This document shows positions 21,517 to 58,938 of a stretch of DNA of 64,000 nucleotides, one piece after another; positions within the stretch are counted from its first letter, which is position 1; each line of letters begins with the position of its first letter. Made by a program: the position numbers and the translations under genes. The stretch is from positions 3,720,001-3,784,000 of the forward strand of contig NZ_PGER01000001.1 of assembly GCF_002797935.1 (NCBI RefSeq). The letters are read 5' to 3'. This stretch comes from Flavobacterium sp. 1 (lineage in GTDB: Bacteria; Bacteroidota; Bacteroidia; Flavobacteriales; Flavobacteriaceae). The notes beneath the pieces are model-generated. The model had not been told where the DNA came from. It saw nothing but the letters and a program-made list of their open reading frames with translations, and did no database searches.

Positions 21517-21521
21517 AGCTT

Positions 21522-24380: not shown

Positions 24381-24460
24381 TTTTTTCAGCTATTACAATT
24401 AACAATTCGGGCAAAAATCACAATATAATTATCTAATTTTTAATAGAATACAATTAAAGA

Positions 24461-24504: not shown

Positions 24505-24536
24505 CATTACAAAAATATTACAAAACTGTAGAAATC

Positions 24537-25040: not shown

Positions 25041-25121
25041 AAACAGTGGGAAACGATTTGAAAGTCATAATCCCCTATTTATATTAAAAAACCACTAACA
25101 AACAAAAAGTTACAACCGACA

Positions 25122-27070: not shown

Positions 27071-27093
27071 CGACACCAATAAAATTTAAAAAT

Positions 27094-28236: not shown

Positions 28237-28257
28237 AAAGTTTAAAATTGTTTAACT

Positions 28258-28320
28258 GTTTAAGGTTGTTTAAAACACAACCCTATTTAAACTTTTAAAC
28301 AACATTAAACCACCTTAAAC
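28258..28320. repeat. Imperfect palindrome between adaptor and RND gene, operon 2
   Basis: GTTTAAGGTTGTTTAA (28258-28273) pairs with TTAAACCACCTTAAAC (28305-28320) with a single mismatch. Several further GTTTAA words fill the gap. It sits at the same place in the operon as the palindrome 17338-17409 of operon 1 but has a different sequence. Confidence 0.6.
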
Positions 28321-28329
28321 CAAAAATAT

Positions 28330-31300: not shown

Positions 31301-31794
31301 ACGTCATTGCCAACATGGATTTTGTAATCCTGATGACGATGATGGGAATCATTTCGCTGGCGGGTATTGTGGTGAAAAATGGTATCGTATTAATGGACTT
31401 CTTTGTTCTCTTATTAGACAAAAAAGTTGCCGATAATCATCTGGAAAGCCATGACGATTTAACGATAGAAGAAATCAAAGAAGTGATAATCGAATCGGGT
31501 AAATCAAGGCTGCGTCCTGTATTACTGACTGCTTTGACAGCCGTTTTGGGATTAATCCCGCTGGCCATCGGACTGAATTTTGACTTTTTCTCTTTGATAA
31601 CCAACTTGAATCCACATATTTTCATGGGTGGGGACAACGTGATTTTCTGGGGTCCTTTGGCCTGGACCATCATCTTCGGGTTGACTTATGCCACGGTATT
31701 GACCTTGGTAATGGTACCGGTAATGTTCTATCTCGTTAAAAGAACGAAGTATTGGTTGAGAGATCGAAGACAAATTCAAGCCGATAAAATATAG
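28330..31794 (+). CDS. RND efflux pump, operon 2 (1154 aa)
   Basis: GLVMGLGMLVDDGIVVVDNVFANM (about residues 398-421) has the two relay Asp in helix 4, and ISLAGIVVKNGIVLMDFFVLL (about 1012-1032) the relay Lys. SVFPGNSAEDVEKLIIKPLE is the porter segment. It is about 110 residues longer than the operon-1 pump. Much of the excess is near residues 510-600 (after DIEDRNVTKKSAKTYS), where two extra hydrophobic segments occur, and in a loop near 1040-1105. It exports a small molecule using the proton gradient. Similarity to operon 1 is at family level only, so substrates may differ. Confidence 0.94.
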   Translation: MSHQNKEFGISSWAVENRVTVYILTLLIVITGTIAYVTMPREDFPEIIENKVYISSVFPGNSAEDVEKLIIKPLEKEIKNISGVDKITSSSFQDYGMIIVEFEDKVTILDAKTKIKDKVDIVKADTDWPNLDNGSKVEPSVFELNISEEVPILNINLQGNYTTQQLKKYGELLQDDIEEIPEVKKVDILGVDDKEVEIAVDIFKMTAAQVSFDDIQSAVKYENMTLSGGNLISQGSRNNIRIVGEIKDPKELENIIVKHNGGTVYLKDIAVVSFKEKEKTTYAREKGTEVVMLNVKKRSNQNMISAIEQVKEKIEEAKASYLPSNLKIELTNDQSSRVEHQVDELSNHIIFGIVLVMIVLMFTMGLRNSLFVGAAIPLSMLMAFSILSAFGLTLNTMVLFGLVMGLGMLVDDGIVVVDNVFANMKKGMPRIQASKTGIGEIAWPVISSTATTLMAFLPFALWPGTMGKFMKYFPMTLTVTLSASLFVAMVVNAAMTGGSMDIEDRNVTKKSAKTYSIIFTIIAVIFVLLGNIYDSKFAKAIGHLAIISLGLMWLYKLKLYQWTQDFQHSFFPRMEDRYKTFLAKILTKRRAWYALAGIIGLLFFSFILLGIFPRKVLFFPDNIPNQVITYIEYPQGTDIEKTNKATLFVEKQVIEVLKKYIDPKTDKNYLAESIVSQVGVGAGNPNVDAGSASETPFKGKVTVNFSEFKFRRGINTADILEEIRGKVKGIAGATVTVEKDANGPPAGYPISIQLTGIDYDEMLKEADKMITFINSKNIPGIERLSIDVNKESPELEVKVDRVSAGSLGVSTGQLGFNLRRSVYGQEISTYKEGDDDYNITMRMQDDQRKNENILFNQALTFRNPANGQMMQVPISAVSETEKTTTYNQIKRKNQKRIMTVYSNVLTGYNGDEITKQIATDLKGYELPKTITYSFSGVQEEQGKNQSFLMYALFLALAGITIIIVLQFNSVSKTMVILFTVILSFSGVFYGYVIANMDFVILMTMMGIISLAGIVVKNGIVLMDFFVLLLDKKVADNHLESHDDLTIEEIKEVIIESGKSRLRPVLLTALTAVLGLIPLAIGLNFDFFSLITNLNPHIFMGGDNVIFWGPLAWTIIFGLTYATVLTLVMVPVMFYLVKRTKYWLRDRRQIQADKI

Positions 31795-33328: not shown

Positions 33329-35479
33329 CTATACTAAACTCTGCTTATTCCACAAATCAAAATACTTCCCTTTTTGTTCTAACAAATCAGTATGATTACC
33401 CGATTCTACAATCATTCCATTTTCCATAACGAGAATGGTATTTGCATTGGCTATGGTACTCAAACGATGGGCAATTACGATAACCGTTTTACCTTGTGCC
33501 TTAAAATTGTCAATCACTTCTTTTACAATTCGTTCTGAGTTGGTGTCCAAGGATGACGTCGCTTCATCCATCAATAAAACCTCTGGATTTTTATATAAGG
33601 CTCTGGCAATGGCAATACGCTGTTTTTGCCCACCTGAAAGCATCGCTCCGTTTTCGCCTATTTGGGTTTCAAATCCATTAGGCAATTTTTCGACAAATTC
33701 CGTAATTGCTAATTGTTTGGACAAATCCAATACCCGTTGAATGTTTGGAAACGAATCGCCTAAAGCAATATTTTCAATAATATTTCCAGAAAATAAATTG
33801 AGCTGCTGCGGAATCACCCCAATGCAGTTGCGTAAACTTTGGTAATGAACAAACTGCGTATCATAATCTCCTATGTAGATTTTGCCCTCTTTTATGGGAT
33901 ACAAATTTTGCAAAAGTGAAATCAAAGTTGTTTTCCCGCTCCCGCTTTCTCCCACAATAGCAGTAGTTTCATTTTTCTTAAATACCGCATTGAAATTTTT
34001 GAATACTTCTGTTCTCGAACCATATCGAAAAGACACATTTTCAAATTTTATATCGCCAATACTTTCTCTTTGCAGTTCCACTTTGTTTTCAGTTTCCTCT
34101 CTTTCCAAATCCATAATTTCAAAAAGCCGGTCGGCAGCAATCAAGGCATTTTGTGCCGTTTTGTTCATCCCGATTAAGGAAGCAACTGGTGAAGTAAAAT
34201 AACCAATCAAAGCATAAAACGAAAATAATTCTCCAGGCGTAATCGCTCTGTCTATCACATAACCCGAACCTATCCACATTAAAACAACCGTAAATATTGA
34301 AGCCAGAAATTGAGTAGAAGTTCCTGCGAAAATTCCATTCAACCCCGATTTATAAGTAGTAAACAATAATTTCACAAACTTATTTTCAGTTTTCAAATTT
34401 GAGAATTCTTCAATGCCAAATTCCTTTACCGTACGAACATGGGTAACACTTTCGACCAATTGAGTCTGCAATTCGGCTGCGTTTTCCATAATGGTTCGTT
34501 CTACTTTTTTATTGAATTTGTTCAAAATAAAATAAATCAAAGTATAAAACGGAATTACAAGCAAAATTACCAAAGCCAATTTCCAGTAATAAGTAAACAT
34601 CAAGGTAAATGAAAAAATCACAATAAACACATTGACAATCATCTCTATCGCAACTTCATTGATAAACGAACGTATTTTGACGGCATCATTAATTCTCGAA
34701 GTAATTTCCCCGATTTGCATTGTATCAAAAAAACGTTGTGGTAAGTGAAGTAAATGCTTATAGTAGCCCAAAATCAATTTGGCATCTATCAATTGTCCAG
34801 TTTTCATGACAAAAACACTCTTTTTGGACCCGATGTAAGCTTGAAGCAAAATAATGACAATCATGGAAACACTCAATAAATTGAGCAAGTTTCTATTGCC
34901 TTCAACCAAAACATAATCCGTAATTTTTTGGATATAAATAGACATCGCCAATCCCAAAACAGTAAAAAGAATGGCACCAACCAATGCCTGAATCAAAATG
35001 GTTTTGTGGGGCTGTACCAAATGCCAGAATCGTTTTATGGGAGAAACTTTCTCATTATAAGTTCTAAAATCATCATTTGGAGCAAAAAGAACCAAAACAC
35101 CTGTCCATATTTTTTGAAATTCTTCAAAAGTGTAGGTTTCCATTTTGCCAAAAGCAGGATCCATAACTTCAATTTTTCCTTTCCCTACAGAATAAATCAC
35201 CACATAATGATGCAGTTGTTCTTTGACCACTACATGAGCAATAGCAGGAAGCGGAATTTTATCTATGGCATCCATTCCTCCTTTTACGCCCTTGGCTGTA
35301 AAATCCATTTTTTCGGCAGCTTCAATTATTCCCAGTACATTCGTACCGCGTTTATCAGTATTGGCATATTGACGAATTCTCGCTATTGGGAGATTAACTT
35401 GGTAATGATTTCCAATAGAAGCGAGACAAGCAGCCCCACAATCTTTAATATCATGTTGTTTTATTTTTATGGAGGCCAT
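33329..35479 (-). CDS. Peptidase C39-containing ABC exporter (716 aa)
   Basis: This is a bacteriocin-type exporter that cleaves double-glycine leaders while exporting the peptide. The N-terminal C39 peptidase has Gln8, Cys14 (KDCGAACLA), His91 (LHHYVVIY) and Asp107 (VMDPAF). Six membrane helices occupy about residues 155-430. The ATPase has Walker A GESGSGKTT, the signature LSGGQKQR, Walker B VLLMDEATSSLD and the H-loop His in VIAHRLS. It is the last gene of the minus-strand operon: precursors, small membrane protein, HlyD, exporter. Its expected substrates are the double-glycine peptides upstream and possibly the precursor at 41108, whose leader ends NGG. Confidence 0.95.
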   Translation of the reverse strand: MASIKIKQHDIKDCGAACLASIGNHYQVNLPIARIRQYANTDKRGTNVLGIIEAAEKMDFTAKGVKGGMDAIDKIPLPAIAHVVVKEQLHHYVVIYSVGKGKIEVMDPAFGKMETYTFEEFQKIWTGVLVLFAPNDDFRTYNEKVSPIKRFWHLVQPHKTILIQALVGAILFTVLGLAMSIYIQKITDYVLVEGNRNLLNLLSVSMIVIILLQAYIGSKKSVFVMKTGQLIDAKLILGYYKHLLHLPQRFFDTMQIGEITSRINDAVKIRSFINEVAIEMIVNVFIVIFSFTLMFTYYWKLALVILLVIPFYTLIYFILNKFNKKVERTIMENAAELQTQLVESVTHVRTVKEFGIEEFSNLKTENKFVKLLFTTYKSGLNGIFAGTSTQFLASIFTVVLMWIGSGYVIDRAITPGELFSFYALIGYFTSPVASLIGMNKTAQNALIAADRLFEIMDLEREETENKVELQRESIGDIKFENVSFRYGSRTEVFKNFNAVFKKNETTAIVGESGSGKTTLISLLQNLYPIKEGKIYIGDYDTQFVHYQSLRNCIGVIPQQLNLFSGNIIENIALGDSFPNIQRVLDLSKQLAITEFVEKLPNGFETQIGENGAMLSGGQKQRIAIARALYKNPEVLLMDEATSSLDTNSERIVKEVIDNFKAQGKTVIVIAHRLSTIANANTILVMENGMIVESGNHTDLLEQKGKYFDLWNKQSLV

Positions 35480-35555: not shown

Positions 35556-36698
35556 TTAAGATTTTGGGGCAATTTGTTTCGGGTTCAACCAATCATCCAT
35601 TTTGTCAAACAACAAATCATAAAGACTTCTTCTTGTTATCATATAACGGGTCGTGAGAGTCATTCCTTTTGAAATTTGGGTTTTATACCCTGATTGCAAT
35701 TGCATAGCGGTACTATTCAAAGCGCAACGTACTTTAAAAAAAGTTTGATTTTCCTGAATCGTAATATTACGGTCAATGTCAATTACTTTCCCTTCCAGTA
35801 ATCCCCATTGATTGTAATTAAACGCATCGAGTTGAAATTTTACTTTTTGATTATTATGTATTAATCCAATATCATTAGGCGAAACCGTGCTTTCCACAAT
35901 AAGCTGATCTGTAGCCGAAATTGTGGCAATAGGTTGTGACGCATTTAAAAATGAACCTACTTGAATTCCAGAAAAGCCCTCTACTGTCCCAGATAAAGGA
36001 GCAATTATGACATAATTTTTAGCTTCTACATTTATTTTTTGCAATGTCCCATTTAGATTTTGCAATTGCTCCTCGAGTTCTCTCTTTTTGTTTTGCCATT
36101 CAGATCGCTGATTTTTTTCCAATCCGGATAATGCCTGTTGTGCATAAGTAAATTCAAAACTGTATTTTTCGAACTCAGCTTTCGCAATTACGCCTTTGTC
36201 ATACAATTGTTTGTTTCGGTCGAATCCTGTTTTAGCTTGAGCAATTTTACTAAGCAGCTCCTCGCGTTTGCTGGAATAACTAAACCATTCCTGCTGCAAT
36301 TCTGGTGTTTTTAGTAAATTACTTTTACCCAAAATAACCAATGACAAATCCTGAATCTGGTTTTGAATAGTAGCCGAAAGTGTTTGATTGGTTGCTTTCT
36401 CAGTATCCAGATTATCCAGAGTGAGCTGCACAAGAGTATCGCCTTTTTGCACCATCCTATTGTTCTTGAGATTTACAAAAGTTACTTTGCCATTGACCAA
36501 ACTAGTGAGTGGCACATTATCGGTAGTCGAGCGTACCATACCACGACTTTGACTACTGATATCTACTTTAATAACGGGCAATAATGCCAGAAAAGCTAAA
36601 ATTCCTAAAACCACCACCAAGTATATGGAAATGCTCTTGGTTTTGTTTTTGGCGATAAGATTCTCTAGGGTATTTATGGGGTCTGAACTGAAGTTCAT
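35556..36698 (-). CDS. HlyD-family adaptor of the C39 exporter (380 aa)
   Basis: The protein has a cytosolic N-terminus (MNFSSDPINTLENL), one membrane helix (about residues 23-45, ISIYLVVVLGILAFLALLP), a lipoyl half GKVTFVNLKNNRMVQKGDTLVQL, a long coiled-coil hairpin (about 85-225) and the second lipoyl half NYVIIAPLSGTVEGFSGIQVGSF. It would connect the exporter to an outer-membrane TolC. The start overlaps the stop of the small membrane protein gene by 4 bases. A truncated second copy of its first 45 codons lies at 37647-37808. No TolC gene is in this locus, so it must borrow one. Confidence 0.92.
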   Translation of the reverse strand: MNFSSDPINTLENLIAKNKTKSISIYLVVVLGILAFLALLPVIKVDISSQSRGMVRSTTDNVPLTSLVNGKVTFVNLKNNRMVQKGDTLVQLTLDNLDTEKATNQTLSATIQNQIQDLSLVILGKSNLLKTPELQQEWFSYSSKREELLSKIAQAKTGFDRNKQLYDKGVIAKAEFEKYSFEFTYAQQALSGLEKNQRSEWQNKKRELEEQLQNLNGTLQKINVEAKNYVIIAPLSGTVEGFSGIQVGSFLNASQPIATISATDQLIVESTVSPNDIGLIHNNQKVKFQLDAFNYNQWGLLEGKVIDIDRNITIQENQTFFKVRCALNSTAMQLQSGYKTQISKGMTLTTRYMITRRSLYDLLFDKMDDWLNPKQIAPKS

Positions 36699-36999: not shown

Positions 37000-37152
37000 T
37001 TATAGTGCAAAAATTGCAACAAGACCAAACAAAGTAGCAGTTTGTTTAACAGTCGTTGCTAATGCTCTTCCCATTCTGTACCCCCATTCTTCAGAAGTAC
37101 CACCTTCAATATTCAATAATTCAAATTCGTTTAATTCAATTAAATTTTCCAT
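37000..37152 (-). CDS. Double-glycine precursor peptide 1 (50 aa)
   Basis: The leader MENLIELNEFELLNIEGG ends in Gly-Gly with hydrophobic residues at -4, -7 and -12, the layout recognised by C39 peptidases. The remaining 32 residues start TSEEWGYRMGRAL and end in a hydrophobic stretch (TLFGLVAIFAL), giving a likely amphipathic helix. There is no Cys, and no LanM- or LanB-type leader motif. It is therefore probably an unmodified class II bacteriocin-like or signalling peptide. It is 18 bp after precursor 2. Too short for a routine gene call, but the leader is clear. Confidence 0.8.
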   Translation of the reverse strand: MENLIELNEFELLNIEGGTSEEWGYRMGRALATTVKQTATLFGLVAIFAL

Positions 37153-37170: not shown

Positions 37171-37332
37171 TTAAAGATTCTCTAAAAAGCCATTGACAAA
37201 CCCATACGCAAACATACCAAATTCTCTTGAAGCATGCCACGCTGCATAAGGAGATAAAAGATTTATTCCCCCGTCAACTTCTTGTACTTCCAGAGCATTA
37301 AGCTCTACTAATTTTAAATTATCTAAATTCAT
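37171..37332 (-). CDS. Double-glycine precursor peptide 2 (53 aa)
   Basis: The leader MNLDNLKLVELNALEVQEVDGG ends in Gly-Gly with Leu and Val at the key upstream positions. The core of 31 residues starts INLLSPYAAWHASREFG and ends FVNGFLENL; it has no Cys and a single His. It is first in the pair, directly after the conserved 300-bp upstream region. The leader part lies inside the duplicated segment and is nearly identical to that of peptide 4. The cores differ completely, as is usual for such families. Confidence 0.8.
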   Translation of the reverse strand: MNLDNLKLVELNALEVQEVDGGINLLSPYAAWHASREFGMFAYGFVNGFLENL

Positions 37333-37632
37333 TTTTATGTTTTTTAAATATTAATTAATCGTTTGTAACAAAATCCTTTTCTCACGAACATTTGTTTTTC
37401 ACAGACTTTATTCAGGCACTTGTGTTCCCTTTGCTCTGTTTTTTTATAGGGTTACATAACAGCTGTAGCAATCCCTCATAATTGACCTAATTACAATTGC
37501 AGAAAATGATTTAACTTTCAGAGTAACGTCTTACCAAAAAACTGTTTCACTATCCTGATGCCAAAACTAGTCGAAACTTCCTATCTAAAGCAAACTATTG
37601 CTGTCGGGATTCGGGAATTCAGACATGATTTT
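37268..37632. repeat. Direct repeat A: promoter region plus leader of precursor 2
   Basis: This segment matches 38755-39120 throughout. From 37490 to 37625 the two copies are identical over 136 bases; the rest has scattered differences. It covers the leader codons of precursor 2 and about 300 bases upstream. The copies have no ORF in the identical part. Confidence 0.9.
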
Positions 37633-37646: not shown

Positions 37647-37808
37647 TCATAAAACAAGTAGACTGCTAATGTCTAATTTAATAACCGTCAATAGTGGCAG
37701 AAAAAACAAAACTGCAATAAGAAATACTAAATAGAAGGAGATACTCTTGATTTTGTTTCTGGCAAAAAGATTTTCTAGGGTGTTTATGGGGTCTGAACTG
37801 AAGTTCAT
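37647..37808 (-). pseudogene. Truncated second HlyD (53 codons)
   Basis: From an ATG at 37808 the first 48 or so residues (MNFSSDPINTLENLFARNKIKSISFYLV..., through TVIKLDISS) match the N-terminus of the HlyD at 35556-36698, including the membrane helix. After DISS the frame departs (LLVL) and stops at 37647, close to the start of direct repeat A. It is what remains of a second adaptor gene after loss of its other 330 codons. Confidence 0.9.
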
Positions 37809-38458: not shown

Positions 38459-38623
38459 TTATGCAAATGGAATTCCATAAACGAAATTCATTTTATATTT
38501 CCAAGTAAGATAATAAGCAGCATCATACCAAAAACTTGTTTCAGTGGTGATCTGTCCTCCTGAAATAGTAATAATTTCTTTGGTATTTAATTCTATCAAA
38601 AATTCAGTAGTTATATTTGTCAT
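38459..38623 (-). CDS. Double-glycine precursor peptide 3 (54 aa)
   Basis: The leader (MTNITTEFLIELNTKEIITISGG) ends Gly-Gly and shares LIELN with precursor 1. The 31-residue core QITTETSFWYDAAYYLTWKYK... is aromatic-rich with no Cys, ending IPFA. It is the distal member of the second pair, as precursor 1 is in the first. The expected processing is by the C39 exporter at 33329-35479, the only one in the window. Confidence 0.75.
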   Translation of the reverse strand: MTNITTEFLIELNTKEIITISGGQITTETSFWYDAAYYLTWKYKMNFVYGIPFA

Positions 38624-38641: not shown

Positions 38642-38820
38642 TTATAATGTATGCCATGCATCTCTAGCACCTCTTTTGATATCAGACCAATTGTTAATTA
38701 TACCCGCTCCAACAAAGGCTATTGCAGCATAAGCTACATCATCTATCCCAAACACCCCCCGTCAACTTCTTGCACTTCCTGAGCATTAAGCTCTACTAAT
38801 TTTAAATTATCTAAATTCAT
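38642..38820 (-). pseudogene. Double-glycine precursor peptide 4 with frameshift in G6 tract
   Basis: The frame from ATG 38818-38820 gives the leader MNLDNLKLVELNAQEVQEVDGG, almost the same as in precursor 2, then meets a stop four codons later. Adding one G to the G6 run (38755-38760 on the plus strand as C6) restores a frame that reads VFGIDDVAYAAIAFVGAGI and ends DAWHTL with a stop at 38642; total 59 aa. The G run encodes the cleavage-site glycines. Either the run varies in length in nature or one base was missed in sequencing. Confidence 0.75.
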
Positions 38821-39120
38821 TTTTACGTTTTTTTAAATGTTAATTAATCGTTTGTAACAAAATCGTTTTCTCGAGAACATTTATTTTTCACAGACTTTAT
38901 TCAGGCACTTGTGTTCCCTTTGCTCTGTTTTTTATAGGGTTACAGTACAGCTGAAACAATCCCACATAATTGGCCAAATTACAATTGCAGAAAATGATTT
39001 AACTTTCAGAGTAACGTCTTACCAAAAAACTGTTTCACTATCCTGATGCCAAAACTAGTCGAAACTTCCTATCTAAAGCAAACTATTGCTGTCGGGATTC
39101 GGGAATTCAGACACGATTTT
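38755..39120. repeat. Direct repeat B: promoter region plus leader of precursor 4
   Basis: Second copy of the segment at 37268-37632 (see there). The identical 136-base block is 38978-39113. It lies upstream of the second precursor pair, so both pairs have the same upstream region. Confidence 0.9.
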
Positions 39121-39246: not shown

Positions 39247-40989
39247 ATGACCTACTTAAACTGGAAGAAAATACTTTTTTTACTCTTAATTCCATTTACT
39301 TTATTTGGACAGGTATCAAAAAAAGAACTTTCAAGGCTTCCTTATGATACCTTAAAAAAAATATTTATCAAAAATGATAGGGATACTAAATTACAAAAAG
39401 AGATTGCAAATGCCTATTTAATAAAAGCGAAAAACGAGCAAAATCCTATTAGAATAGCAAAAGGGTATTATATGTATTCTGTGTTAAATACAGGAAACAA
39501 ATCAATTTATTTTTTAGATAGTGTAATTAAATATTCCATAAAAACTAACGATATCGATTTTCCCGCAGTTGCTTATACAGAAAAAGGGTACGAATTAAAA
39601 TCTCAATTTAAATATAATGAAGCAATTGATAATTTTATTTTGGCTGAAAAATATGCTTTAAAGAACAACATTGACTATTACTTTGAGATAAAATATTCTA
39701 TTGCAGTATTACGATCTGAAGAGTTGGGCGAAACAATTGAAGCATTAAATTTATATAGAGAATGCTTGAAATACTATAAAAAAAAGGAGTTAAGAACTCC
39801 TAAATATTCTATAATGTATCAAAATACACTATTCGCTCTTGCAGATGCATTTAAAACATTAAATCAAACCGACTCTGCAACTTATTATAATAGACTAGGA
39901 TATACAGAGTCCAAAATGACTAAAAATGAGATATACAATTCCCTTTTCATTTTAAATGAAGGTGCTAATTTAGTCTTGAAAAAAAAATACAAAACAGCTC
40001 TTGACAGTATTAAAAAAGCATTGCCAAAAATAATAGTCTATAAAGATGAAGGAAACACTTTGGCTGCCTATTACTATTTAGGAAAGGCCTATGAGGGACT
40101 TGGAAATAAACACTTGGCAATAAAAAACTTCATTAAAGTAGATTCCCTTTATAACAAAACAAAAAGAATTACTCCAGAATTCACAAGTGGTTATTCTTTT
40201 CTAATCTCTTATTTCAAAGAAAAGGGTGACAAAGGGAATCAATTAAAATATCTCACAAAATATATGTACATAGACAGTACTTTGCAAAAAAATTATAAAG
40301 AATTAACAAAAAAATTACAAAAAGAATATGACACACCCCATTTGATTTCCGATAAAGAAAGCTTGATTCAATCTCTTGAAAGTGAAAGAACAACATCATA
40401 CTGGGGAATTGGAGGTTTGTTTTTAATTACCATTTCCGTTACTAGTTTAGGTATTTATCAACACAATCTGAAAAAAAAGTATAAATCCAGTTTTGAAAAA
40501 ATCATAAACCAAACGGAGCAATCCAAAAACAACATAACAAATATACCCAACGATGAAATCGAAATTGAAGCCAATAATTCCAATGTAGACATTGGTATTG
40601 CTGAAGAACTGGTAAAACAAATTCTTGAAAAACTCAAACGATTTGAATCCAAAAAAGAATACTTACAATCTAATATTACAGTACAAACCCTTTCAAATAC
40701 ATTTGAAACAAACAGCAAATACATTTCAAAAATTGTAAATACCCATAAAGGAAAAACATTTATTCAATACATCAATGATTTAAGAATTGAGTATGCCATT
40801 ATTCAATTACAAAAAGACAATAAGCTTCGTAAATACACTATTCATGCTCTCTCTTTAGAGTACGGATTTAATAATGCTGAATCCTTTTCAACCGCTTTTT
40901 ACAAAAAAACAGGCATAAAACCCACTTATTTCATCAAAGAATTAGAGACTCAAACAAAAAACATAATCAAATCAAAATCAATCATTTGA
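39247..40989 (+). CDS. TPR - transmembrane - AraC-type regulator (580 aa)
   Basis: I prefer the ATG at 39247 (MTYLNWKKILFLL) to a TTG 30 bases upstream because the -7 element lies between them. A signal or anchor segment begins the protein, then TPR-like helices (FKYNEAIDNFILAEKYALKNN, YYLGKAYEGLGNKHLAIKNF) to about residue 365. One membrane helix follows (about 386-405, YWGIGGLFLITISVTSLGIY), then a cytosolic part ending in an AraC domain: TVQTLSNTFETNSKYISKIVN and LSLEYGFNNAESFSTAFYKKTG. It may sense a periplasmic signal and control the adjacent peptide genes. This domain order is common among Bacteroidota regulators. Confidence 0.85.
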   Translation: MTYLNWKKILFLLLIPFTLFGQVSKKELSRLPYDTLKKIFIKNDRDTKLQKEIANAYLIKAKNEQNPIRIAKGYYMYSVLNTGNKSIYFLDSVIKYSIKTNDIDFPAVAYTEKGYELKSQFKYNEAIDNFILAEKYALKNNIDYYFEIKYSIAVLRSEELGETIEALNLYRECLKYYKKKELRTPKYSIMYQNTLFALADAFKTLNQTDSATYYNRLGYTESKMTKNEIYNSLFILNEGANLVLKKKYKTALDSIKKALPKIIVYKDEGNTLAAYYYLGKAYEGLGNKHLAIKNFIKVDSLYNKTKRITPEFTSGYSFLISYFKEKGDKGNQLKYLTKYMYIDSTLQKNYKELTKKLQKEYDTPHLISDKESLIQSLESERTTSYWGIGGLFLITISVTSLGIYQHNLKKKYKSSFEKIINQTEQSKNNITNIPNDEIEIEANNSNVDIGIAEELVKQILEKLKRFESKKEYLQSNITVQTLSNTFETNSKYISKIVNTHKGKTFIQYINDLRIEYAIIQLQKDNKLRKYTIHALSLEYGFNNAESFSTAFYKKTGIKPTYFIKELETQTKNIIKSKSII

Positions 40990-40996
40990 ATAATAT

Positions 40997-41030
40997 TTGC
41001 TTATCGAAATTCCTGAATTTCGATAAGCAA
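40997..41030. terminator. Perfect hairpin terminator after the regulator gene
   Basis: Arms of 16 bases (40997-41012 and 41015-41030) around TTGCTTATCGAAATTC pair perfectly with a 2-base centre, 8 bases after the regulator stop. No strong T run follows, so it may stabilise the 3' end or terminate with help. Confidence 0.65.
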
Positions 41031-41066: not shown

Positions 41067-41074
41067 TAAATTTG
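41067..41074 (+). promoter_or_regulatory. -7 element of the RiPP operon
   Basis: TAAATTTG fits TAnnTTTG and lies 33 bases before the precursor ATG. The -33 region has no good TTG, as if an activator, perhaps the AraC protein upstream, were needed. Confidence 0.5.
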
Positions 41075-41107: not shown

Positions 41108-41272
41108 ATGAAAACGGACAAAGAGAAAAAAGCTAACAAAAAATTTGATTTAGAAAAAATGAATGTAGCAAAATTAAAAAACATCCATTTGATCAATGGA
41201 GGATTCGGTAAAGATGAAGATGTTGTAACTGTTACAGAAACAAAAACAATTATTGTTAAAGTTACTCGATAG
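41108..41272 (+). CDS. Cys-free RiPP precursor with FDLE leader motif (54 aa)
   Basis: The leader is basic (MKTDKEKKANKK), then KFDLEKMNVAKLKNIHLINGG. FDLE resembles the FNLD box that LanB dehydratases bind in class I lanthipeptide leaders, and the leader ends in Gly-Gly. The 22-residue core, from FGKDEDVVTVTE to IIVKVTR, has five Thr, no Ser and no Cys. Without Cys no lanthionine ring can be formed inside the peptide. It is the first gene of a run to the split LanB genes, so its Thr residues are the likely targets of dehydration. Confidence 0.75.
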   Translation: MKTDKEKKANKKFDLEKMNVAKLKNIHLINGGFGKDEDVVTVTETKTIIVKVTR

Positions 41273-41294
41273 ACATTTAAAACTCTAACACTTT

Positions 41295-42995
41295 ATGAAG
41301 TCCAGTTATAATCTATTTTTATTTGTATTATTGTTGTTTTCTGGATGCAAATCTGCAAAACAACCGATTTTAATTTCTGATATTTCACAAAATTCAAAAA
41401 AAATATTACAATATTGGTATCAAAAAGATTATGACCAAGATGGAAATCCTGGTATTTCTTTAGACAAATGGTATGCCCAAAATAAAAACAAACCCAAAAG
41501 CAAAAATATTACAGTTGCGGTAATTGACACTCAAATTGATAAAAACCATGAAGATTTAAAAGACAACATCTGGATCAATCCAAAAGAAATTGTTAATAAC
41601 GGCATCGATGACGACCATAATGGTTACATTGATGATATAAATGGATGGAATTTTACAGGAACCAAAAATGGAGGTTATATAGTATGGGGAAATTTTGAAT
41701 ATGTTCGCTTTGTGAGAATGTGGAATCCATTATTTAAAAACAAAATTGAAAATGAAATTCCAGTTAAAGACTTACCAAACTATAAAGAATACTTAAGAGC
41801 AGAAAAAATACTGAAAGAAAAAACTATTTACTACAAAAATTTACTTAAAATCACAAAACATTGCATGGTCACTTATTCGTTGGCAAAAGATAGTTTAAAA
41901 CATTATTTTCCAAAAGAAGACTATACTTATCAGGAATTGGATAGCATGTATAAAAAACACAAGATAAACAACAAAACATTCGGTCAAAGGAGCGATGATA
42001 AGGATACAGATTTTGGCACACTAATAGACGGCATGATGGTTAATTTTGAAGTTAATCAAAAAGACTTCAAACAGATTAATGAAAACGCCACACAGTCAGA
42101 TTCTGTCGTCAATAAAAATCTTAACCTGAATTATAATGAACGTATTTCTATAGGAGACAATCCTGACTTTCTTGAAAAGGGTTATGGCACAAACAATATT
42201 AGCATAAACAAAGAAGGGTATAGAAATATACAAAATCATAGTACTGAAGTCTCAGGTATTATAGCAGCCAACAGAAACAATAATATTGGCATAAAAGGAA
42301 TTGCTGAAAATGCAAAAATAATGCCTTTGTGTATTTCCTTTTCTGGTGATGAGCACGATAAAGATATTACTATGGCGATACGTTATGCGGTGGATAATGG
42401 GGCCAAAATAATCAATATGTCTTTTGGGAAAGAATTCTCATTGCACAAAGAATGGGTATTCGAAGCTTTTAAGTACGCTGAAGAGCACAATGTTCTACTG
42501 GTTCATTGCGCTGGAAATAATGGATTTAATGTTGATGAAAATCCGTATTACCCGAGTGATAATAGTTTTAATGGAACTAAAGAAGTATGCAATAATTTCA
42601 TCAATGTAGGATCCATTTCTTCTAGACTAGACAGTACATTTGTATCCACTTTTTCTAATTATGGAAAGCAAAACGTAGATTTATTTGCCCCTGGCGAAGA
42701 AATCTATACTACTTCCACAGGAAACAACACCTATGTCTCAGATTCAGGAACCTCGCTTGCAGGCCCAATGGTTTCCGGAACCGCTGCATTAATCTGGTCG
42801 TACTATCCAAACCTTACAGCAACTGAAGTCAAACAGATCATTCTGGATTCGGGTACTGCTTATGATTTAGAAGTTATTGTTCCTGACACAACTGACAAAA
42901 AAGTCCCATTCTCGGAATTATCCAAATCAGGAAAAGTTTTAAATGTATATAATGCCATGCAAATGGCTGAGAAAGTGAGTAAACATAAATCTTAA
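41295..42995 (+). CDS. Lipoprotein subtilisin-like (S8) protease 1 (566 aa)
   Basis: A lipoprotein signal ends at Cys18 (LLFSGC). The catalytic triad is Asp78 in VAVIDTQIDKNHEDL, His315 in NHSTEVSG and Ser487 in SGTSLAGPM, with oxyanion Asn408 in HCAGNNG. About 235 residues separate Asp from His, far more than the usual 30-40, so there is a large family-specific insertion (residues about 125-310). It shares one base with the next gene (TAATG). In lanthipeptide clusters S8 enzymes (LanP) remove leaders; here a membrane-tethered enzyme would act outside the cytosol. Confidence 0.9.
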   Translation: MKSSYNLFLFVLLLFSGCKSAKQPILISDISQNSKKILQYWYQKDYDQDGNPGISLDKWYAQNKNKPKSKNITVAVIDTQIDKNHEDLKDNIWINPKEIVNNGIDDDHNGYIDDINGWNFTGTKNGGYIVWGNFEYVRFVRMWNPLFKNKIENEIPVKDLPNYKEYLRAEKILKEKTIYYKNLLKITKHCMVTYSLAKDSLKHYFPKEDYTYQELDSMYKKHKINNKTFGQRSDDKDTDFGTLIDGMMVNFEVNQKDFKQINENATQSDSVVNKNLNLNYNERISIGDNPDFLEKGYGTNNISINKEGYRNIQNHSTEVSGIIAANRNNNIGIKGIAENAKIMPLCISFSGDEHDKDITMAIRYAVDNGAKIINMSFGKEFSLHKEWVFEAFKYAEEHNVLLVHCAGNNGFNVDENPYYPSDNSFNGTKEVCNNFINVGSISSRLDSTFVSTFSNYGKQNVDLFAPGEEIYTTSTGNNTYVSDSGTSLAGPMVSGTAALIWSYYPNLTATEVKQIILDSGTAYDLEVIVPDTTDKKVPFSELSKSGKVLNVYNAMQMAEKVSKHKS

Positions 42996-44701
42996 TGAAA
43001 TCTATTTATACTTTTCTTTTCTTTTTAATTTTTTTCATAAGTTGCAAAACAACAATAGATCCTACATCTATTCCTTTGAAGTCTACCTTTACAAAGGAGC
43101 TTAATCCTTTGAACATGCAAACATGGCATCAAAAAGACTACCAGCAAGATACTATCCCAGGAATTTCTCTGGATAAATGGTATAGTCTAAACAAAAAGAA
43201 ACCCAAAAGTAAAAGCATCATTGTTGCAGTAATCGACACTCAAATCGATTTGAATCACGAAGATTTACAAGGCCAAATATGGACAAACCCCAATGAAATT
43301 CCAAACAATGGTATTGATGATGACAAAAACGGCTATATAGACGACATCAATGGCTGGAGTTTTACAGGAACAAAAAGTGGTGGCTATGTTGTATGGAATA
43401 GATATGAATACGTGCGAATCGTAAAAGATTGGGAATCATTATTTAAGAATAAAACAGAATCTCAGATCGGCACTCAAGACTTGTATAAATATAAAGAATA
43501 CCAAAGGGCATTAAAAACACTGGAAGAAAAAGACAAGTATTATCAAAATTGGTTAAAATCCTTAAAGCACAGTGTAGCCATCTATCCCTTGGTAAAAGAT
43601 ACCTTAAAACATTTTTTTCCTAAAGAAGATTATACCTATGAACAACTGGATAGTATGTATAAAAAATATAAAATAAATGATAAAAGGTACAGACAGAGAC
43701 GTGATGACAATGATAAAGATCTTGGAGCATTAATCGATTATATGATGGGTAATCTTGAAGTTAATGAAAAAACTTTAGAGGATATAAAAGACAAAGAAAT
43801 TCAACTAGACTCTGTTGTCAATAAAAATTTGAATTTAAATTATAACGAACGACTCTCTATTGGTGATAATCCAACAATCCTAGAAAAAGGATATGGTAAT
43901 AACAAAGTTAGCAATACGATAAAAGGTGTAAGAACTATTCAAGATCATAACACAATGGTATCTGGTATTATTGCTGCGAACAGGAATAATAGCAAAGGAA
44001 TAAAAGGGATTGCACAGAATGTAAAAGTCATGCCCTTGAACATTTCTCCATCGGGAGACGAACATGACAAAGACATCACTATGGCGATTCGCTATGCTGT
44101 GGATAATGGTGCAAAAATAATCAATATGTCCTTTGGTAAAGAATTCACAATGCACAAAGAATGGGTTTATGAGGCTTTTAAATATGCTGAAAAACACAAT
44201 GTACTACTCGTTCACAGTGCAGGAAATGATAGTCAAAGTGTAGATGAAAACCCCTCTTATCCTAGTGATATTAGCTATGATGGTTCTAAAGAAATGTGTA
44301 ACAATTTCATCAATGTAGGTTCTATAACCCACAAACTAAGCAGTACATTTGTGTCAGATTTTACTAATTATGGAAAGCAAAATGTAGATTTATTTGCCCC
44401 TGGAGATAAAATTTACACCACAGGAGCAGGCAATATTTATAAAACGGAGTCTGGCACTTCACTTGCGGCTCCAATGGTTTCTGGAACCGCTGCATTAATC
44501 TGGTCGTACTATCCAAACCTTACAGCGACTGAAGTCAAACAAATCATTCTGGATTCGGGTACTGCTTATGATTTAGAAGTTCTAGTTCCGGGGATAAAAG
44601 ACAAAAAAGTTCCTTTCTCGGAATTATCCAAATCCGGAAAAGTATTAAATGTATATAATGCTATGCAAATGGCTGAGAAAGTGAGTAAACATAAAAAGTA
44701 A
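42995..44701 (+). CDS. Lipoprotein subtilisin-like (S8) protease 2 (568 aa)
   Basis: This paralogue has a lipobox (FISC, Cys17) and the same architecture: Asp81 in VAVIDTQIDLNHEDL, His near 318 in DHNTMVSG, Ser near 489 in SGTSLAAPM, and the same long insertion. The final 100 residues are almost identical to protease 1, while the middle is more diverged. It overlaps the preceding and following genes by one base each, so the four genes are translated as a tight unit. Either both enzymes cut the product or one protects or matures the other. Confidence 0.9.
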   Translation: MKSIYTFLFFLIFFISCKTTIDPTSIPLKSTFTKELNPLNMQTWHQKDYQQDTIPGISLDKWYSLNKKKPKSKSIIVAVIDTQIDLNHEDLQGQIWTNPNEIPNNGIDDDKNGYIDDINGWSFTGTKSGGYVVWNRYEYVRIVKDWESLFKNKTESQIGTQDLYKYKEYQRALKTLEEKDKYYQNWLKSLKHSVAIYPLVKDTLKHFFPKEDYTYEQLDSMYKKYKINDKRYRQRRDDNDKDLGALIDYMMGNLEVNEKTLEDIKDKEIQLDSVVNKNLNLNYNERLSIGDNPTILEKGYGNNKVSNTIKGVRTIQDHNTMVSGIIAANRNNSKGIKGIAQNVKVMPLNISPSGDEHDKDITMAIRYAVDNGAKIINMSFGKEFTMHKEWVYEAFKYAEKHNVLLVHSAGNDSQSVDENPSYPSDISYDGSKEMCNNFINVGSITHKLSSTFVSDFTNYGKQNVDLFAPGDKIYTTGAGNIYKTESGTSLAAPMVSGTAALIWSYYPNLTATEVKQIILDSGTAYDLEVLVPGIKDKKVPFSELSKSGKVLNVYNAMQMAEKVSKHKK

Positions 44702-46911
44702 TGAACAAATACAAAGTTCTGCCTTTCCAACACTATGTTTTAAGAACTCCATTATTTCCAATTTCTTTCTACAGCAATTTAGCAGCCAATTATTCATTCG
44801 AAAACCTTTTGCTACAGTTAGAAAATGACTATGTTCGAGAAGCTATTCACTTAGCTTCTCCTGAACTGCTCTCAGCTTTAGGCAAATGTAAATCAAACCC
44901 ATCAACCGTATCTGATAAAAAAAAGCTAGCTTTAGAACTCAGCTTTCTTAAATATTTATCCAGAATGTCTGCTCGCTGTACTCCTTTCGGAATATTTGCA
45001 GGTTGTACAGTGGGAAAAATAACTCCAGAGACAAACATTACACTTGAATCTCAAGAAAACCACTCTCGGCATACACAATTTGACATGCAGTTTTGGGTAG
45101 CCTTATTGCAAGACTTTTCGAGACGAAAAGAGGTCATCCCACATTTAAAATATTATCCTAATACTTCAATTTATGAATTAGGTAACTTTTATCGATTTGT
45201 AGAATACAAATACATAAAAACAAAAAGAGAACACCATATTTCGGCAATACGTAAATCCGATTTACTAGCTCTTTTATTGGCCAAAACCAAATCAGGCATA
45301 ACTGTTCCTGAAATGATTTGTTTATTAGCTGATGATGGTTCCGAAACTGAAGAAGCATTAGAATATATCAATCAACTCATCGATTTTCAATTTCTAGTAA
45401 GCGAATTGGATGCAACGGTAACAGGAGATGACGATTGGGGCAGCGTTTTTACTATTCTGAATAAAATTCCAGCTTTAAAAGAGGAATGCGAACTTTTGCA
45501 AAAAATAAAAGAACAGTTTTCAGCATTAGACGCAAGTCTAAATCCTTTCGAAAATAAGTACGAGAAAATAAAAACTGAAATTCAAAAATTAGGTATTGAA
45601 TATGACAACAAATATCTTTTTCAAACAGATTTAAACACAACTGATTTTGTAAATACATTAAGCGACAACGTATCTAGAAAAGTACTTCAAGCCATTCGAT
45701 TTTTAAATGGAATTCAGAAACAAAAAGAATCTGTGAATCAAATCCATTTCATTAAGGCATTTACCAAAAGATATGAATCAAGAGAAATGCCTTTGACCAC
45801 AGTCTTAGACACGGAGACTGGTATTGGCTATCTTCAAAATCAAGAGATGAACGACACTCATGATCTTTTAGAACAATTCTCATTTGCAACTAAAATTTCA
45901 GACGAAAAAAATCAAAATTGGACTGATTTTGACTTTATTTTGGAAACAAAACTGCAGGAATCTCTTTTAAAAAAAGAAAACATCATAACCCTCTCTGAAA
46001 AAGATTTTCCTGAATTTGACCATAATTGGAATAATGCTCCTGCAACCTTTTCGGTCATGATAGAATGTTTAAGAAAGGATGAACGTGAAATTATTGCAAT
46101 AGAGTCTTCGGGCAGTATAAGTGCCGCAAAATTACTTGCCCGTTTTTGTAATGGCAATAAAGCAATTCACAACTTAAGTTCAGAAATCATACAAAAGGAA
46201 ACGATCTATCATAAAGATAAAATTCTAGCCGAAATCGTTCATATTCCAGAATCGAGAACTGGAAATATTTTAAGAAGACCCGTTTTAAGAGAATTTGAAA
46301 TTCCTTATTTATCAAATTCAGGAGTACCCGCAGAATATCAAATTGGGCTGGATGATTTAATGGTCTCCATTAAAAATGACACTATTGTATTACGTTCTAA
46401 AAAACACAATAAAGAAATCATTCCATGCTTGTCAAACGCACATAATTATTCCAATAAATCATTGCCCATTTATCACTTTTTGGCTGATTTACAGTCCCAA
46501 AATGTAAAACCAATTTATAGTTTCTCATGGGGAGTCTTAGAAAGCCATTATAACTATTTCCCAAGGGTCGTATACAGAGATATCATTCTTAGCAAAGCAA
46601 GATGGAGCGTAACCAAAAAAGAAATGGAATCTTTTTATAAACAAAACAGCTCTTCTCTAGTGGAAATCTTTACAATTTGGCGAACTATGCGTAACATTCC
46701 CCAATATGTAAATTGGATACATTTTGACAATACTCTTTTAATCGATTTTAAGAATGAAATTGGAATTCAGCTATTCTTAAAATCAATACAAAGTCAAAAT
46801 ATAATCGACTTAGAAGAATTTTTATTTACAGAAGAATCAGTTGTTAAAGATAAAAACGGAGAAAACTTCGCCAATCAAATTATACTTTCATTTTATAAAG
46901 AACAAACTTAG
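44701..46911 (+). CDS. LanB-type dehydratase, glutamylation half (736 aa)
   Basis: LanB enzymes activate Ser/Thr of a precursor using glutamyl-tRNA and then eliminate glutamate. This protein is the N-terminal (glutamylation) part: it starts with the family pattern FQHYVLRTPLFPISFY and has the YLSRMSARCTPFGIFAG motif with Arg92 and TPFG at 94-97. EIPYLSNSGVPAEYQIGLDDLMVSI and PIYHFLADLQSQNVKPIYSF occur later. The elimination part is missing here and is encoded by the next gene (4-bp gap). Split LanB proteins are known from thiopeptide and some lanthipeptide systems. Confidence 0.9.
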   Translation: MNKYKVLPFQHYVLRTPLFPISFYSNLAANYSFENLLLQLENDYVREAIHLASPELLSALGKCKSNPSTVSDKKKLALELSFLKYLSRMSARCTPFGIFAGCTVGKITPETNITLESQENHSRHTQFDMQFWVALLQDFSRRKEVIPHLKYYPNTSIYELGNFYRFVEYKYIKTKREHHISAIRKSDLLALLLAKTKSGITVPEMICLLADDGSETEEALEYINQLIDFQFLVSELDATVTGDDDWGSVFTILNKIPALKEECELLQKIKEQFSALDASLNPFENKYEKIKTEIQKLGIEYDNKYLFQTDLNTTDFVNTLSDNVSRKVLQAIRFLNGIQKQKESVNQIHFIKAFTKRYESREMPLTTVLDTETGIGYLQNQEMNDTHDLLEQFSFATKISDEKNQNWTDFDFILETKLQESLLKKENIITLSEKDFPEFDHNWNNAPATFSVMIECLRKDEREIIAIESSGSISAAKLLARFCNGNKAIHNLSSEIIQKETIYHKDKILAEIVHIPESRTGNILRRPVLREFEIPYLSNSGVPAEYQIGLDDLMVSIKNDTIVLRSKKHNKEIIPCLSNAHNYSNKSLPIYHFLADLQSQNVKPIYSFSWGVLESHYNYFPRVVYRDIILSKARWSVTKKEMESFYKQNSSSLVEIFTIWRTMRNIPQYVNWIHFDNTLLIDFKNEIGIQLFLKSIQSQNIIDLEEFLFTEESVVKDKNGENFANQIILSFYKEQT

Positions 46912-46914
46912 AAT

Positions 46915-47772
46915 ATGAAGAGAGATTTTTGCTTAGGAAGCGAATGGTTATACTATAAAATCTATACTGGCGTTAAAACTGCCGATATCATTTTACTTGA
47001 AAAACTAAATCCAGTAATACAAGAATTAAGAGACGAAAATAAAATCCAAAAATGGTTTTTCATTAGATACAAAGACCCTGAGGAGCATCTTAGAATTCGA
47101 ATTTATTGTGCAAATTCAGAAAACACATCCCTTATTATTGCGCAATTGTACCCTGTTTTAAACACATTACTCCAAGATAATATTGTTTGGAAAGTTCAAA
47201 CAGATACTTATCAAAGAGAAATGGAACGATATGGAAAAAACACTATTGAAGATTCCGAAACTTTATTCTGGCAGGATAGCGAAATGATATTAAATTATCT
47301 ATCTCTAAAATTAAATTTTACAAAAAATAAGATGGAATTAATTTTTAGTTTTCTTTCGATTGACAGTTTTTTAAATTCATTTTCGTTAAGTAATATTCAG
47401 AAATTGACTTTAATGGATGAATTACAAGCTTCTTTCAAAAAGGAATTTGATGCAGATAAAACTCTTAAAAAAGAAATGGCTAACCATTATAAAGAATTGT
47501 CTCAGGAAGTACAGTTTTTCTTGTCGGGAACAGCTTTAAATGATTTTCCTAAAATTTATGTAGCGATACAAGAAAAACAAAATCAAACTAATAAAACAAT
47601 CTTGTTAATAAAAGATAAATTAACAATTCCATTATCTGATTTTCTAATGAGTCATATTCACATGATGATGAATCGTCAATACACATCAAAACAAAGAATG
47701 TATGAGTTATTAATCTATGATCATTTATTCAGATACTACAAAAGCATTGAGCACTTTAAAACCAATAAATAA
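46915..47772 (+). CDS. LanB-type elimination domain protein (285 aa)
   Basis: The protein matches the C-terminal domain of LanB, also found as stand-alone thiopeptide-type biosynthesis protein. It opens EWLYYKIYTGVKTADIILLEKLNPVI and has KWFFIRYKDPEEHLRIRIYC (about residues 44-63), then YQREMERYGKNTIEDSETLFWQDS, which is the conserved Glu/Arg-containing elimination segment. The C-terminus has SHIHMMMNRQ. It would remove glutamate to give dehydrobutyrine from the precursor's Thr. No LanC cyclase gene is next to it. The gene ends 2 bases before a hairpin terminator. Confidence 0.88.
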   Translation: MKRDFCLGSEWLYYKIYTGVKTADIILLEKLNPVIQELRDENKIQKWFFIRYKDPEEHLRIRIYCANSENTSLIIAQLYPVLNTLLQDNIVWKVQTDTYQREMERYGKNTIEDSETLFWQDSEMILNYLSLKLNFTKNKMELIFSFLSIDSFLNSFSLSNIQKLTLMDELQASFKKEFDADKTLKKEMANHYKELSQEVQFFLSGTALNDFPKIYVAIQEKQNQTNKTILLIKDKLTIPLSDFLMSHIHMMMNRQYTSKQRMYELLIYDHLFRYYKSIEHFKTNK

Positions 47773-58413: not shown

Positions 58414-58938
58414 ATGAGTGAAGAATTAATCATAACCGAAGAATTTATAATGAGCAAAATATTGCTGATTAGAGATACGAAAGTGATGATTGATTCAGAT
58501 TTAGCTGTCCTTTATGGAGTAGAAACTAAACAACTCAAAAGACAAGTCAGAAGAAATATAGAACGATTCCCTGAAGATTTCATGTTTGAATTAAACAAAA
58601 ATGAAGTAGAAATCTTAAGGAGCCAATTTGGTACCTTAAAACAAGGAGCACATTCAAAATATACTCCGATGGTGTTTACAGAACAAGGAGTCGCAATGTT
58701 GTCGAGTGTATTAAATAGCGCTACGGCTATAAAGGTAAACATTCAAATTATAAGGGTTTTTACTAAAATTAGAGTTATGTTATCCGATACAATGACAATG
58801 AAATTAGATATTGAGGAGATAAAAAACAAACTCACTAACCAAAGCAGAAACATAGAATTGGTTTTCACCTATTTAGATGAGTTGATGGAGAAACAGGATA
58901 ATAAGATTGAAAGAAATAAAATTGGGTATAAAAAATAA
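58414..58938 (+). CDS. ORF6N-domain protein inserted in the nuo operon (174 aa)
   Basis: Residues 12-95 match the ORF6N domain: KILLIRDTKVMIDSDLAVLYGVETKQLKRQVRRNIERFPEDFMFELNKNEV and YTPMVFTEQGVAMLSSVLNSATAIKVNIQIIRVF. The C-terminus is a coiled coil. ORF6N domains are DNA-binding modules found in phages and in bacterial genomes of this phylum, often near KilA-N and Bro domains. It has no role in complex I. It lies between nuoH and nuoI with an RNA-like repeat behind it, so it is an intrusion that the operon tolerates. Confidence 0.85.
   Translation: MSEELIITEEFIMSKILLIRDTKVMIDSDLAVLYGVETKQLKRQVRRNIERFPEDFMFELNKNEVEILRSQFGTLKQGAHSKYTPMVFTEQGVAMLSSVLNSATAIKVNIQIIRVFTKIRVMLSDTMTMKLDIEEIKNKLTNQSRNIELVFTYLDELMEKQDNKIERNKIGYKK

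Follow-up and report, generated by a model that had tools for sequence, protein, structure and literature searches.

We propose, with roughly even confidence, that a locus of Flavobacterium sp. 1 encodes an autoinducing circuit in which a LanB-dehydrated, ring-optional peptide switches on its own operon and the adjacent bacteriocin genes. The operon occupies 41108-47772 of the window, a 64,000-nucleotide stretch at 3720001-3784000 in a complete genome that forms a single contig of 5351669 bases, and consists of a precursor gene, two S8 lipoprotease genes (S8a, S8b) and a class I lanthipeptide dehydratase divided over two genes, LanB-N for glutamylation and LanB-C for glutamate elimination. The sequence-level basis of the proposal is this gene set together with the conserved catalytic residues, the absence of LanC, the fixed spacing between palindromes and promoter boxes, and the covariation of the core peptide with the tetratricopeptide repeat (TPR) domain of a neighbouring TPR-AraC regulator.

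The circuit would operate as follows. The split LanB would turn the threonines of a short secreted peptide into dehydrobutyrine, and no thioether ring would form, as both Cys and LanC are lacking. Export, most plausibly through the divergent C39 exporter, would remove the Gly-Gly (GG) leader, and the envelope S8 lipoproteases would finish or trim the peptide. The TPR domain of the membrane-spanning regulator would sense the mature peptide from the periplasmic side, while its cytoplasmic helix-turn-helix (HTH) part would bind palindromes and activate two gene sets, its own operon of precursor, S8 and LanB genes and the divergent genes that encode GG bacteriocin-like peptides with their exporter. 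It is from these features that we infer the dehydration step, the way of export and processing, the binding of the ligand, gene activation and the purpose of the peptide. Slightly short of even is our confidence in the fuller reading, i.e. a new Bacteroidota signalling system in which a LanB-dehydrated, ring-optional pheromone is read outside the membrane by the TPR-AraC receptor, drives autoinduction via a 20-bp palindrome, turns on divergent class II-like bacteriocin and exporter operons, and is swapped between strains with the TPR domain and protease as a specificity cassette, LanB being generic.

Split dehydratase and its substrates

An initial annotation of the operon described a 54-residue precursor with FDLE in its leader, a Gly-Gly end and a 22-residue core with five Thr and neither Cys nor Ser; coordinates and translation bear this out (Table 1), and its observation of the gene set is confirmed. 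The leader pattern is K-F-D-L-E ... VAKLKN ... INGG at the leader end. An FxLD-like motif is a leader feature of class I lanthipeptides, present here as FDLE and as F-x-[LI]-[ED] variants in most listed precursors. The junctions, initially given as one to four bases for the LanB genes, are 1-base overlaps at S8a/S8b and S8b/LanB-N and 3 bases at LanB-N/LanB-C; precursor and S8a are separated by 22 bases. Precursor, LanB-N and full-length regulator occur in one copy each in the genome. Databases hold 48 precursor homologues besides the window's own, mostly called 'hypothetical protein' where their sources name them and once given a different, unlikely name. Pfam has no family for the window precursor at E 0.001, its sole NCBIfam match lies far under the cut-off (E 0.026; 14.7 versus 130 bits), and the precursor of one relative has no family match even at E 5.

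Both dehydration steps appear intact, because the counterparts of the NisB active-site residues are all kept. Profiles of 14 LanB-N and 13 LanB-C sequences were aligned to NisB (4wd9), with NisB numbers counted along the alignments. Y85, R88, R92, T94, D310 and R481 of LanB-N align with NisB Y80, R83, R87, T89, D299 and R464, and R51, H58, R60, R62, E102, R105 and H249 of LanB-C with NisB R775, H782, R784, R786, E823, R826 and H961. All of these are invariant in the alignments, as is LanB-N R15, which falls outside the coverage of the NisB alignment. According to the available sections of PMC4341554, NisB Y80, R83, R87 and H961 matter for function, dehydration is still full in the R775 and D299 mutants, and it is nearly full in the R784 mutant. 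The LanB halves initially placed on separate genes are confirmed as a PF04738 half and a PF14028/TIGR03891 half, each with its catalytic residues, so that the glutamylation and elimination active sites of class I lanthipeptide dehydratases are both present.

The LanB pair recurs in 46 further loci, 28 in named Flavobacterium and 18 in other genomes of the genus, giving 47 loci with the window; the closest named relatives of LanB by sequence comparison are Flavobacterium. A LanB-N match of some sort, other LanB kinds included, occurs in 74 of 398 genomes of the genus. LanB-C is found in all 47 loci, an intact regulator in 45 and a split one in 2, and a recognised precursor in 44; the regulator of locus L058 shows just 33% identity and lies 2.6 kb from S8. 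Among open reading frames (ORFs) of at least 80 aa within flanks of up to 10 kb at the 28 named loci, the recurring families are LanB-N (28), LanB-C (28), regulator (27), S8 (26), HlyD (10) and C39-type ABC (6), and no other family reaches five.

The leader is conserved and the core hypervariable (mean distance 0.42 versus 0.81). Counted by locus (n=44), cores contain Cys in 34, none in 9 and both kinds in 1. All 46 cores contain Thr and at least three Ser/Thr; 36 contain Cys, a single one in 32, and the pattern [ST][ST]x1-2C is present in 33 of these 36 against 7.8% of shuffled cores. Within the last 26 residues of the 48 database homologues, Cys is present in 25 and absent in 23. The cores with Cys appear designed to form a single small ring at the C-terminal end, also in genomes that lack LanC, and in them a ring between dehydroalanine (Dha) and Cys might arise spontaneously. 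On the LanB-N tree (44 loci) the Cys state changes at least six times, and the close LanB pairs L032/L035 (12% different) and L067/L115 (10% different) have opposite states. The dehydratase thus appears to accept substrates that can form a ring as well as those that cannot.

LanC, searched with the PF05147 profile, has no match in the complete 5.35-Mb genome; in a control search with the same profile it was found in 1 of 14 named genomes. Neither LanC nor core Cys, both class I lanthipeptide features, is present in the window. A LanC and Cys-containing precursors for the same enzymes elsewhere in the genome, named at the outset as the finding that would count against a Cys-free system, did not turn up: there is no LanC, one precursor and a single LanB-N. 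Since the complete genome holds no LanC and only one LanB-N, the product is most likely, by sequence, a peptide that contains dehydrobutyrine and no ring. The linear dehydrobutyrine peptide of the initial annotation is thus supported for the window, where the core has no Cys, LanC is absent and the LanB residues are kept, but 'Cys-free' fails as a trait of the system, as 34 of 44 loci have Cys cores. In the related clusters to which it had pointed, Cys-free cores recur (eight loci besides the window) and LanC is absent from 33 of 48 LanB-bearing genomes (21 of 28 named and 12 of 20 further ones, with a few genomes possibly in both sets). As most relatives have Cys cores, yet these 33 genomes lack LanC, the system seems better termed ring-optional than Cys-free.

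S8a and S8b each have a lipoprotein-type N-terminus (by eye) and keep Asp, His, Ser and the lipid-attachment Cys (D78/H315/S487 in S8a, whose Cys18 is invariant in 12 aligned S8 proteins), with Asp and His about 237 residues apart; the pLDDT (predicted local distance difference test) of the predicted structure is 58.7. Intact S8 genes number one in 34 of the 47 loci, two in 6, three in 2 and none in 5, and twin proteases were rejected as a defining trait. The two membrane-tethered proteases emphasised initially do exist, but their pairing is incidental, and the two genes are evidently a local duplication. An S8 paralogue outside the operon, at C1:4271287-4272762 of the same genome (44% identity), is possibly the origin of the operon proteases.

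Regulator, palindromes and divergent genes

The initial annotation caught the five operon genes but overlooked the regulator, the palindromes and the divergent bacteriocin-like and exporter genes, which carry most of the functional information. ATG 39247 is the preferred start of the regulator, the listed ORF beginning at a TTG 30 bp earlier. A signal-like N-terminus is followed by TPR repeats (aa ~33-349), a transmembrane segment (aa ~385-403, then LKKK; by hydropathy) and a C-terminal AraC-type HTH with helices at aa 453-579. The AlphaFold model (pLDDT 84.8) gives TPR fold matches and superposes on Rap and NprR. The only full-length match to the regulator in its genome is itself, and its stop lies 100-160 bp ahead of the precursor in 42 of 46 upstream regions. 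The arrangement agrees with peptide-pheromone/TPR quorum sensing, where a TPR receptor with a DNA-binding output adjoins the peptide gene.

The palindrome between regulator stop and precursor, at 41004-41023, is the only site in the genome at up to one mismatch to TCGAAATTCNNGAATTTCGA. A palindrome (up to 3 mismatches, 2- or 3-bp spacer) follows 46 of 48 regulator copies, and in these 46 the distance to the precursor box TAnnTTTG, which we take to be a Bacteroidota-type -7 box, is 41-45 bp in 40, 31-35 in two and 52-56 in one; the deviant spacings would be shifts of about one helical turn. TAnnTTTG is present in 41 of 46 upstream regions against 8.7% of shuffles, and the 2-bp-spacer motif at up to 3 mismatches in 42 of 52 regions scanned against 0.05% of shuffles. 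At up to 2 mismatches the genome contains four sites, namely 41004-41023, the identical copies 39092-39111 and 37604-37623, and 3392622, which lies inside an apparent coding gene (by eye) and was put down to chance; of these four best matches, three fall within 3.4 kb at this locus.

The 39092 site faces GG-leader peptide genes, and the 37604 copy precedes a further group of GG peptides together with HlyD and the C39 exporter. Of 46 regulators, 40 have a divergent palindrome upstream, and in 34 cases a minus-strand -7 box lies 32-35 bp from it. GG-type ORFs follow within 1.6 kb at 20 of 36 such divergent sites and at 10 of 18 further sites with the same spacing, two of the latter ORFs being the precursor of the ribosomally synthesised and post-translationally modified peptide (RiPP) itself (L126, L127), against 8.6% of 3000 random stretches. 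Four GG peptides of relatives were scanned, and three resembled class IIb/IIc bacteriocins weakly, none reaching a curated cut-off; one of the three in the window has a weak bacteriocin match. Per regulator copy, the spacers of both palindromes are 2 bp in 34 cases, 3 bp in 3 and unlike in 2, as expected if one protein reads both.

Several further observations concern these genes. A 366-bp segment is duplicated at 95% identity before the GG-peptide genes (37268-37632 and 38756-39120), the minus-strand GG-peptide gene copy starting at 38820 has an early stop, and the N-terminus of HlyD is repeated in truncated form at 37647-37808. In two distant LanB kinds (35-40% identity), at L063 13143-15128 (Flavobacterium reichenbachii) and L061 5661-7710 (Chryseobacterium sp. 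S0630, a genome without LanC), a TPR-AraC regulator is likewise paired with a Cys-free GG precursor, and the gap is 33 bp for the variant palindrome of L063.

Covariation was assessed from pairwise distances over 36 loci by partial Mantel tests, a profile in 80-residue steps and a bootstrap. Core distance correlates with TPR at r 0.57, S8 0.45, leader 0.36, HTH 0.34 and LanB-N 0.32. Given LanB-N, S8 and HTH, the TPR term is 0.43 (p 0.0005); given TPR, that of LanB-N is 0.03. Within the regulator, plain r is highest at TPR aa 101-180 (0.61; partial on LanB-N 0.55) and lowest at the HTH end (0.31; 0.16), though this end is closest to the precursor in DNA. The first half of S8 reaches 0.45 (0.36), LanB-N 0.21-0.34 (with partials near 0 by construction) and LanB-C 0.19-0.38. 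The TPR term persists in Cys cores alone (0.42, 29 loci) and in a thinned set (0.43, 25 loci), and the bootstrap of TPR minus HTH spans 0.14-0.50. Linkage alone was rejected in part as its source, as the HTH end nearest the precursor scores lowest; cassette exchange is not fully separable. Pairs like L067/L115 differ little in LanB (10%) and much in TPR (53%), which suggests an exchange of the regulator, together with precursor and protease, as one cassette relative to LanB. The L114 genome carries two regulators and three precursors, one of them coreless, in tandem, likely a regulator-precursor cassette duplication.

Competing readings and surrounding features

A number of results weigh against the proposed circuit. 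Cassette movement relative to LanB seems to inflate the covariation; the bootstrap of TPR minus S8 (-0.03 to 0.43) includes 0; and over 18 path-disjoint pairs the core tracks TPR (rho 0.67) but HTH too (0.62). Ratio tests are not significant (TPR/HTH p 0.43; TPR/LanB p 0.22), and nearest-neighbour prediction by TPR is better in 10 and worse in 5 cases against HTH (p 0.23) and 10 versus 7 against S8 (p 0.13). The TPR fold matches are generic. Sites at up to 3 mismatches number 18 in the genome, compared with 10 for a reversed-pattern control, and both divergent sites of the window have 2 mismatches and stem from a single duplication. By the pattern used, GG peptides are absent from 16 of 36 divergent sites, and a C39 exporter (at least 75% identity) or HlyD partner (at least 55%) accompanies only 11 of 28 named relative loci. 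SSxxC-like Cys cores prevail among the relatives, so the ring may be the ancestral product.

The alternative that survives best, though we consider it unlikely, is that the dehydrated peptide is itself the antimicrobial and the regulator answers another cue (a peptide or envelope stress), merely co-controlling RiPP and bacteriocin-like genes. LanB products are often antimicrobial, the RiPP and GG-peptide genes adjoin and have palindromes in common, and the circuit would control little else, since no other operon of the genome is preceded by a palindrome at up to 2 mismatches. Against this stand the covariation of the core with TPR, which exceeds that with LanB, S8 and HTH, the single regulator beside a single precursor in the genome, and the lack of an extra family (at least 80 aa) in at least five of the 28 loci, a count that involved no search aimed at immunity genes.

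Far less probable is an ordinary class I lanthipeptide whose ring Cys or cyclase comes from elsewhere, be it an unlinked LanC, another peptide or a small thiol. The [ST][ST]x1-2C pattern of the relatives' Cys cores speaks for it, as does LanC in 7 of 28 named genomes with the family operon (9 of 31 when every named genome found via a LanB locus is counted) and in 8 of 20 further genomes of the genus. The Cys-free window core and the lack of a LanC match in the complete genome speak against it. Where LanC lies ~10-26 kb from the family operon, it is part of a different LanB cluster in G438 and G497 and solitary in G514, and its pairing with the operon was rejected in these three genomes; in the remaining LanC-bearing genomes, LanC and operon were compared by contig and position only. 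Similarly improbable, and marginally more so, is that the palindromes are terminators of the regulator gene. They do resemble hairpins, with long perfect inverted repeats of 16-23-bp arms (window, L041, L046, L064), but their spacing to the next promoter box is near-fixed and their distance to the regulator stop variable, the motif also occurs upstream of the regulator in opposite orientation, and its uniqueness in the genome at up to one mismatch makes a general terminator or repeat unlikely.

We give very little weight to thiopeptide/pyritide-like chemistry or that of peptide aminoacyl-tRNA ligases (PEARLs): pearlins and pyritides were earlier reached through LanB-type clusters that lack LanC and Cys (PMC11002830, in its available part), but here, unlike the short PEARL LanBs without elimination partner, an intact elimination half with conserved residues adjoins LanB-N, no second PF14028-type or other modifying enzyme recurs, and the core has no Ser for a Dha partner. 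Equally remote is decay of the operon, with Cys lost by drift and no product made; some relatives are visibly broken (the L038 precursor stops within its leader, and L055 and L113 have S8 fragments), but the five window genes are intact with active-site residues kept, eight other Cys-free loci and one mixed locus lie on several LanB branches, and 23 of 48 database homologues lack Cys in their last 26 residues.

Elsewhere in the window, 1-11657 is a low-G+C stretch with a resolvase at 11037-11657 (Pfam E 1e-34) alongside unassigned genes, and looks like an integrated element. Two tandem, like-ordered sets (13712-20584 and 24537-31794, within 13712-31794) comprise YceI, a TetR-type regulator, and TolC-like, membrane-fusion and RND-type transporter genes, the YceI pair checked against Pfam and the others by eye. 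An ORF6N-domain gene (58414-58938; Pfam ORF6N, E 4e-35) sits inside the nuo (NADH dehydrogenase) operon between two subunit genes (subunits by eye).

Table 1. Features of the locus in window coordinates
Feature	Position	Strand	Remarks
Precursor gene	41108-41272	+	54 aa, Cys-free, leader ending Gly-Gly
Precursor leader	41108-41203	+	Part upstream of 41204; 32 aa, FDLE motif, GG end; conserved among relatives
Core peptide	41204-41269	+	22 aa, FGKDEDVVTVTETKTIIVKVTR; five Thr, no Ser, no Cys
S8a lipoprotein protease	41295-42995	+	Pfam Peptidase_S8, E 4e-49
S8b lipoprotein protease	42995-44701	+	Pfam Peptidase_S8, E 2e-48; 72% identity to S8a
LanB glutamylation half (LanB-N)	44701-46911	+	PF04738, E 1e-135
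LanB glutamate-elimination half (LanB-C)	46915-47772	+	PF14028, E 1.5e-64; TIGR03891, E 8e-61
TPR-AraC one-component regulator	39247-40989	+	HTH_18 above cut-off; TPR matches below cut-off
Palindrome, putative operator	41004-41023	.	TCGAAATTCCTGAATTTCGA, 0 mismatches to consensus TCGRAATTCNNGAATTYCGA; between regulator stop and precursor
-7 box TAnnTTTG	41067-41074	+	TAAATTTG, 43 bp past the palindrome
Divergent palindrome	39092-39111	.	2 mismatches; minus-strand -7 box TAGTTTTG at 39057-39050, gap 34
Second divergent palindrome copy	37604-37623	.	Within duplicated segment; minus-strand -7 box 37569-37562, gap 34
GG-leader bacteriocin-like peptide	38459-38623	-	By sequence pattern
GG-leader bacteriocin-like peptide	37171-37332	-	MNLDNLKLVELN-type leader
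GG-leader bacteriocin-like peptide	37000-37152	-	Weak Bacteriocin_IIc match, below cut-off
HlyD membrane-fusion protein	35556-36698	-	Family match
C39 peptidase-containing ABC exporter	33329-35479	-	Candidate exporter and GG-cleaving protease

Relation to known systems

If the proposal is true, the locus would represent a LanB product with dehydroamino acids as its end point and a concrete peptide-signalling circuit with defined receptor, operator and target genes, and the family would offer near-identical natural dehydratases, some with Cys and others with Cys-free substrates, on which to study LanC-independent cyclisation. To our knowledge, few peptide-signalling circuits are known in Bacteroidota. 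LanC-anchored mining is blind to this family, though its LanB pair is present in 28 named Flavobacterium strains. The family could be missed earlier because mining began from LanC and discarded Cys-free cores; the available text of a 2020 survey describes such a start from LanC and the discarding of ORFs without core Cys (PMC7268733). Among the matches listed, which comprise titles and abstract openings and few subscription papers, no description of this operon was found. A survey of Flavobacteriaceae gives 29 Flavobacterium-specific RiPP families in its accessible part (PMC10734526), and this family may be among them.

Class I lanthipeptides use an S8-type protease, LanP, to which the S8 genes here bear a likeness, and are regulated by a LanRK pair, in place of which the TPR-AraC regulator is found. 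In nisin-type autoinduction the modified peptide induces its own operon, as proposed here; there a histidine kinase pair is used, here a one-component transmembrane TPR-AraC candidate receptor, accompanied by divergent bacteriocin-like genes. The pheromone-controlled class II bacteriocin loci blp and pln combine GG peptides, a C39 exporter, an inducing peptide and repeated operators in one locus. GG peptides, C39 exporter and repeated operators are shared with the locus described here, where the proposed inducer is predicted to be LanB-modified and no two-component system is present. Thiopeptide and pyritide pathways have a cycloaddition enzyme beside a split LanB and a Ser-derived Dha pair, whereas one PF14028 gene, no other enzyme in at least five of 28 loci and no core Ser are found here.

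Class I lanthipeptides (NisB/NisC; MadB, PMC12241602; those of Chryseobacterium and Runella, PMC9993889; both papers in part) share with this family the LanB active sites, an FxLD/E-like motif and a GG leader end, and differ in that LanB here occupies two genes, LanC is lacking and Cys is optional. Pearlins and pyritides, in the available part of PMC11002830, also involve LanB homologues without LanC and Cys; here, unlike there, a full split dehydratase with its elimination half is present and no partner chemistry is seen. As tested, the system lacks two defining class I lanthipeptide features, LanC and Cys, and does not qualify as a pearlin or a pyritide either. On the regulatory side, RRNPP/TprA-PhrA systems likewise place a TPR receptor with an HTH next to a peptide gene, and TprA systems control lantibiotic genes, according to the accessible sections of PMC13361665 and PMC5436883. 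Unlike these, the candidate receptor described here is membrane-spanning with its TPR domain predicted outside, its DNA-binding part is of AraC type, its peptide is predicted to be LanB-modified, and it belongs to Bacteroidota.

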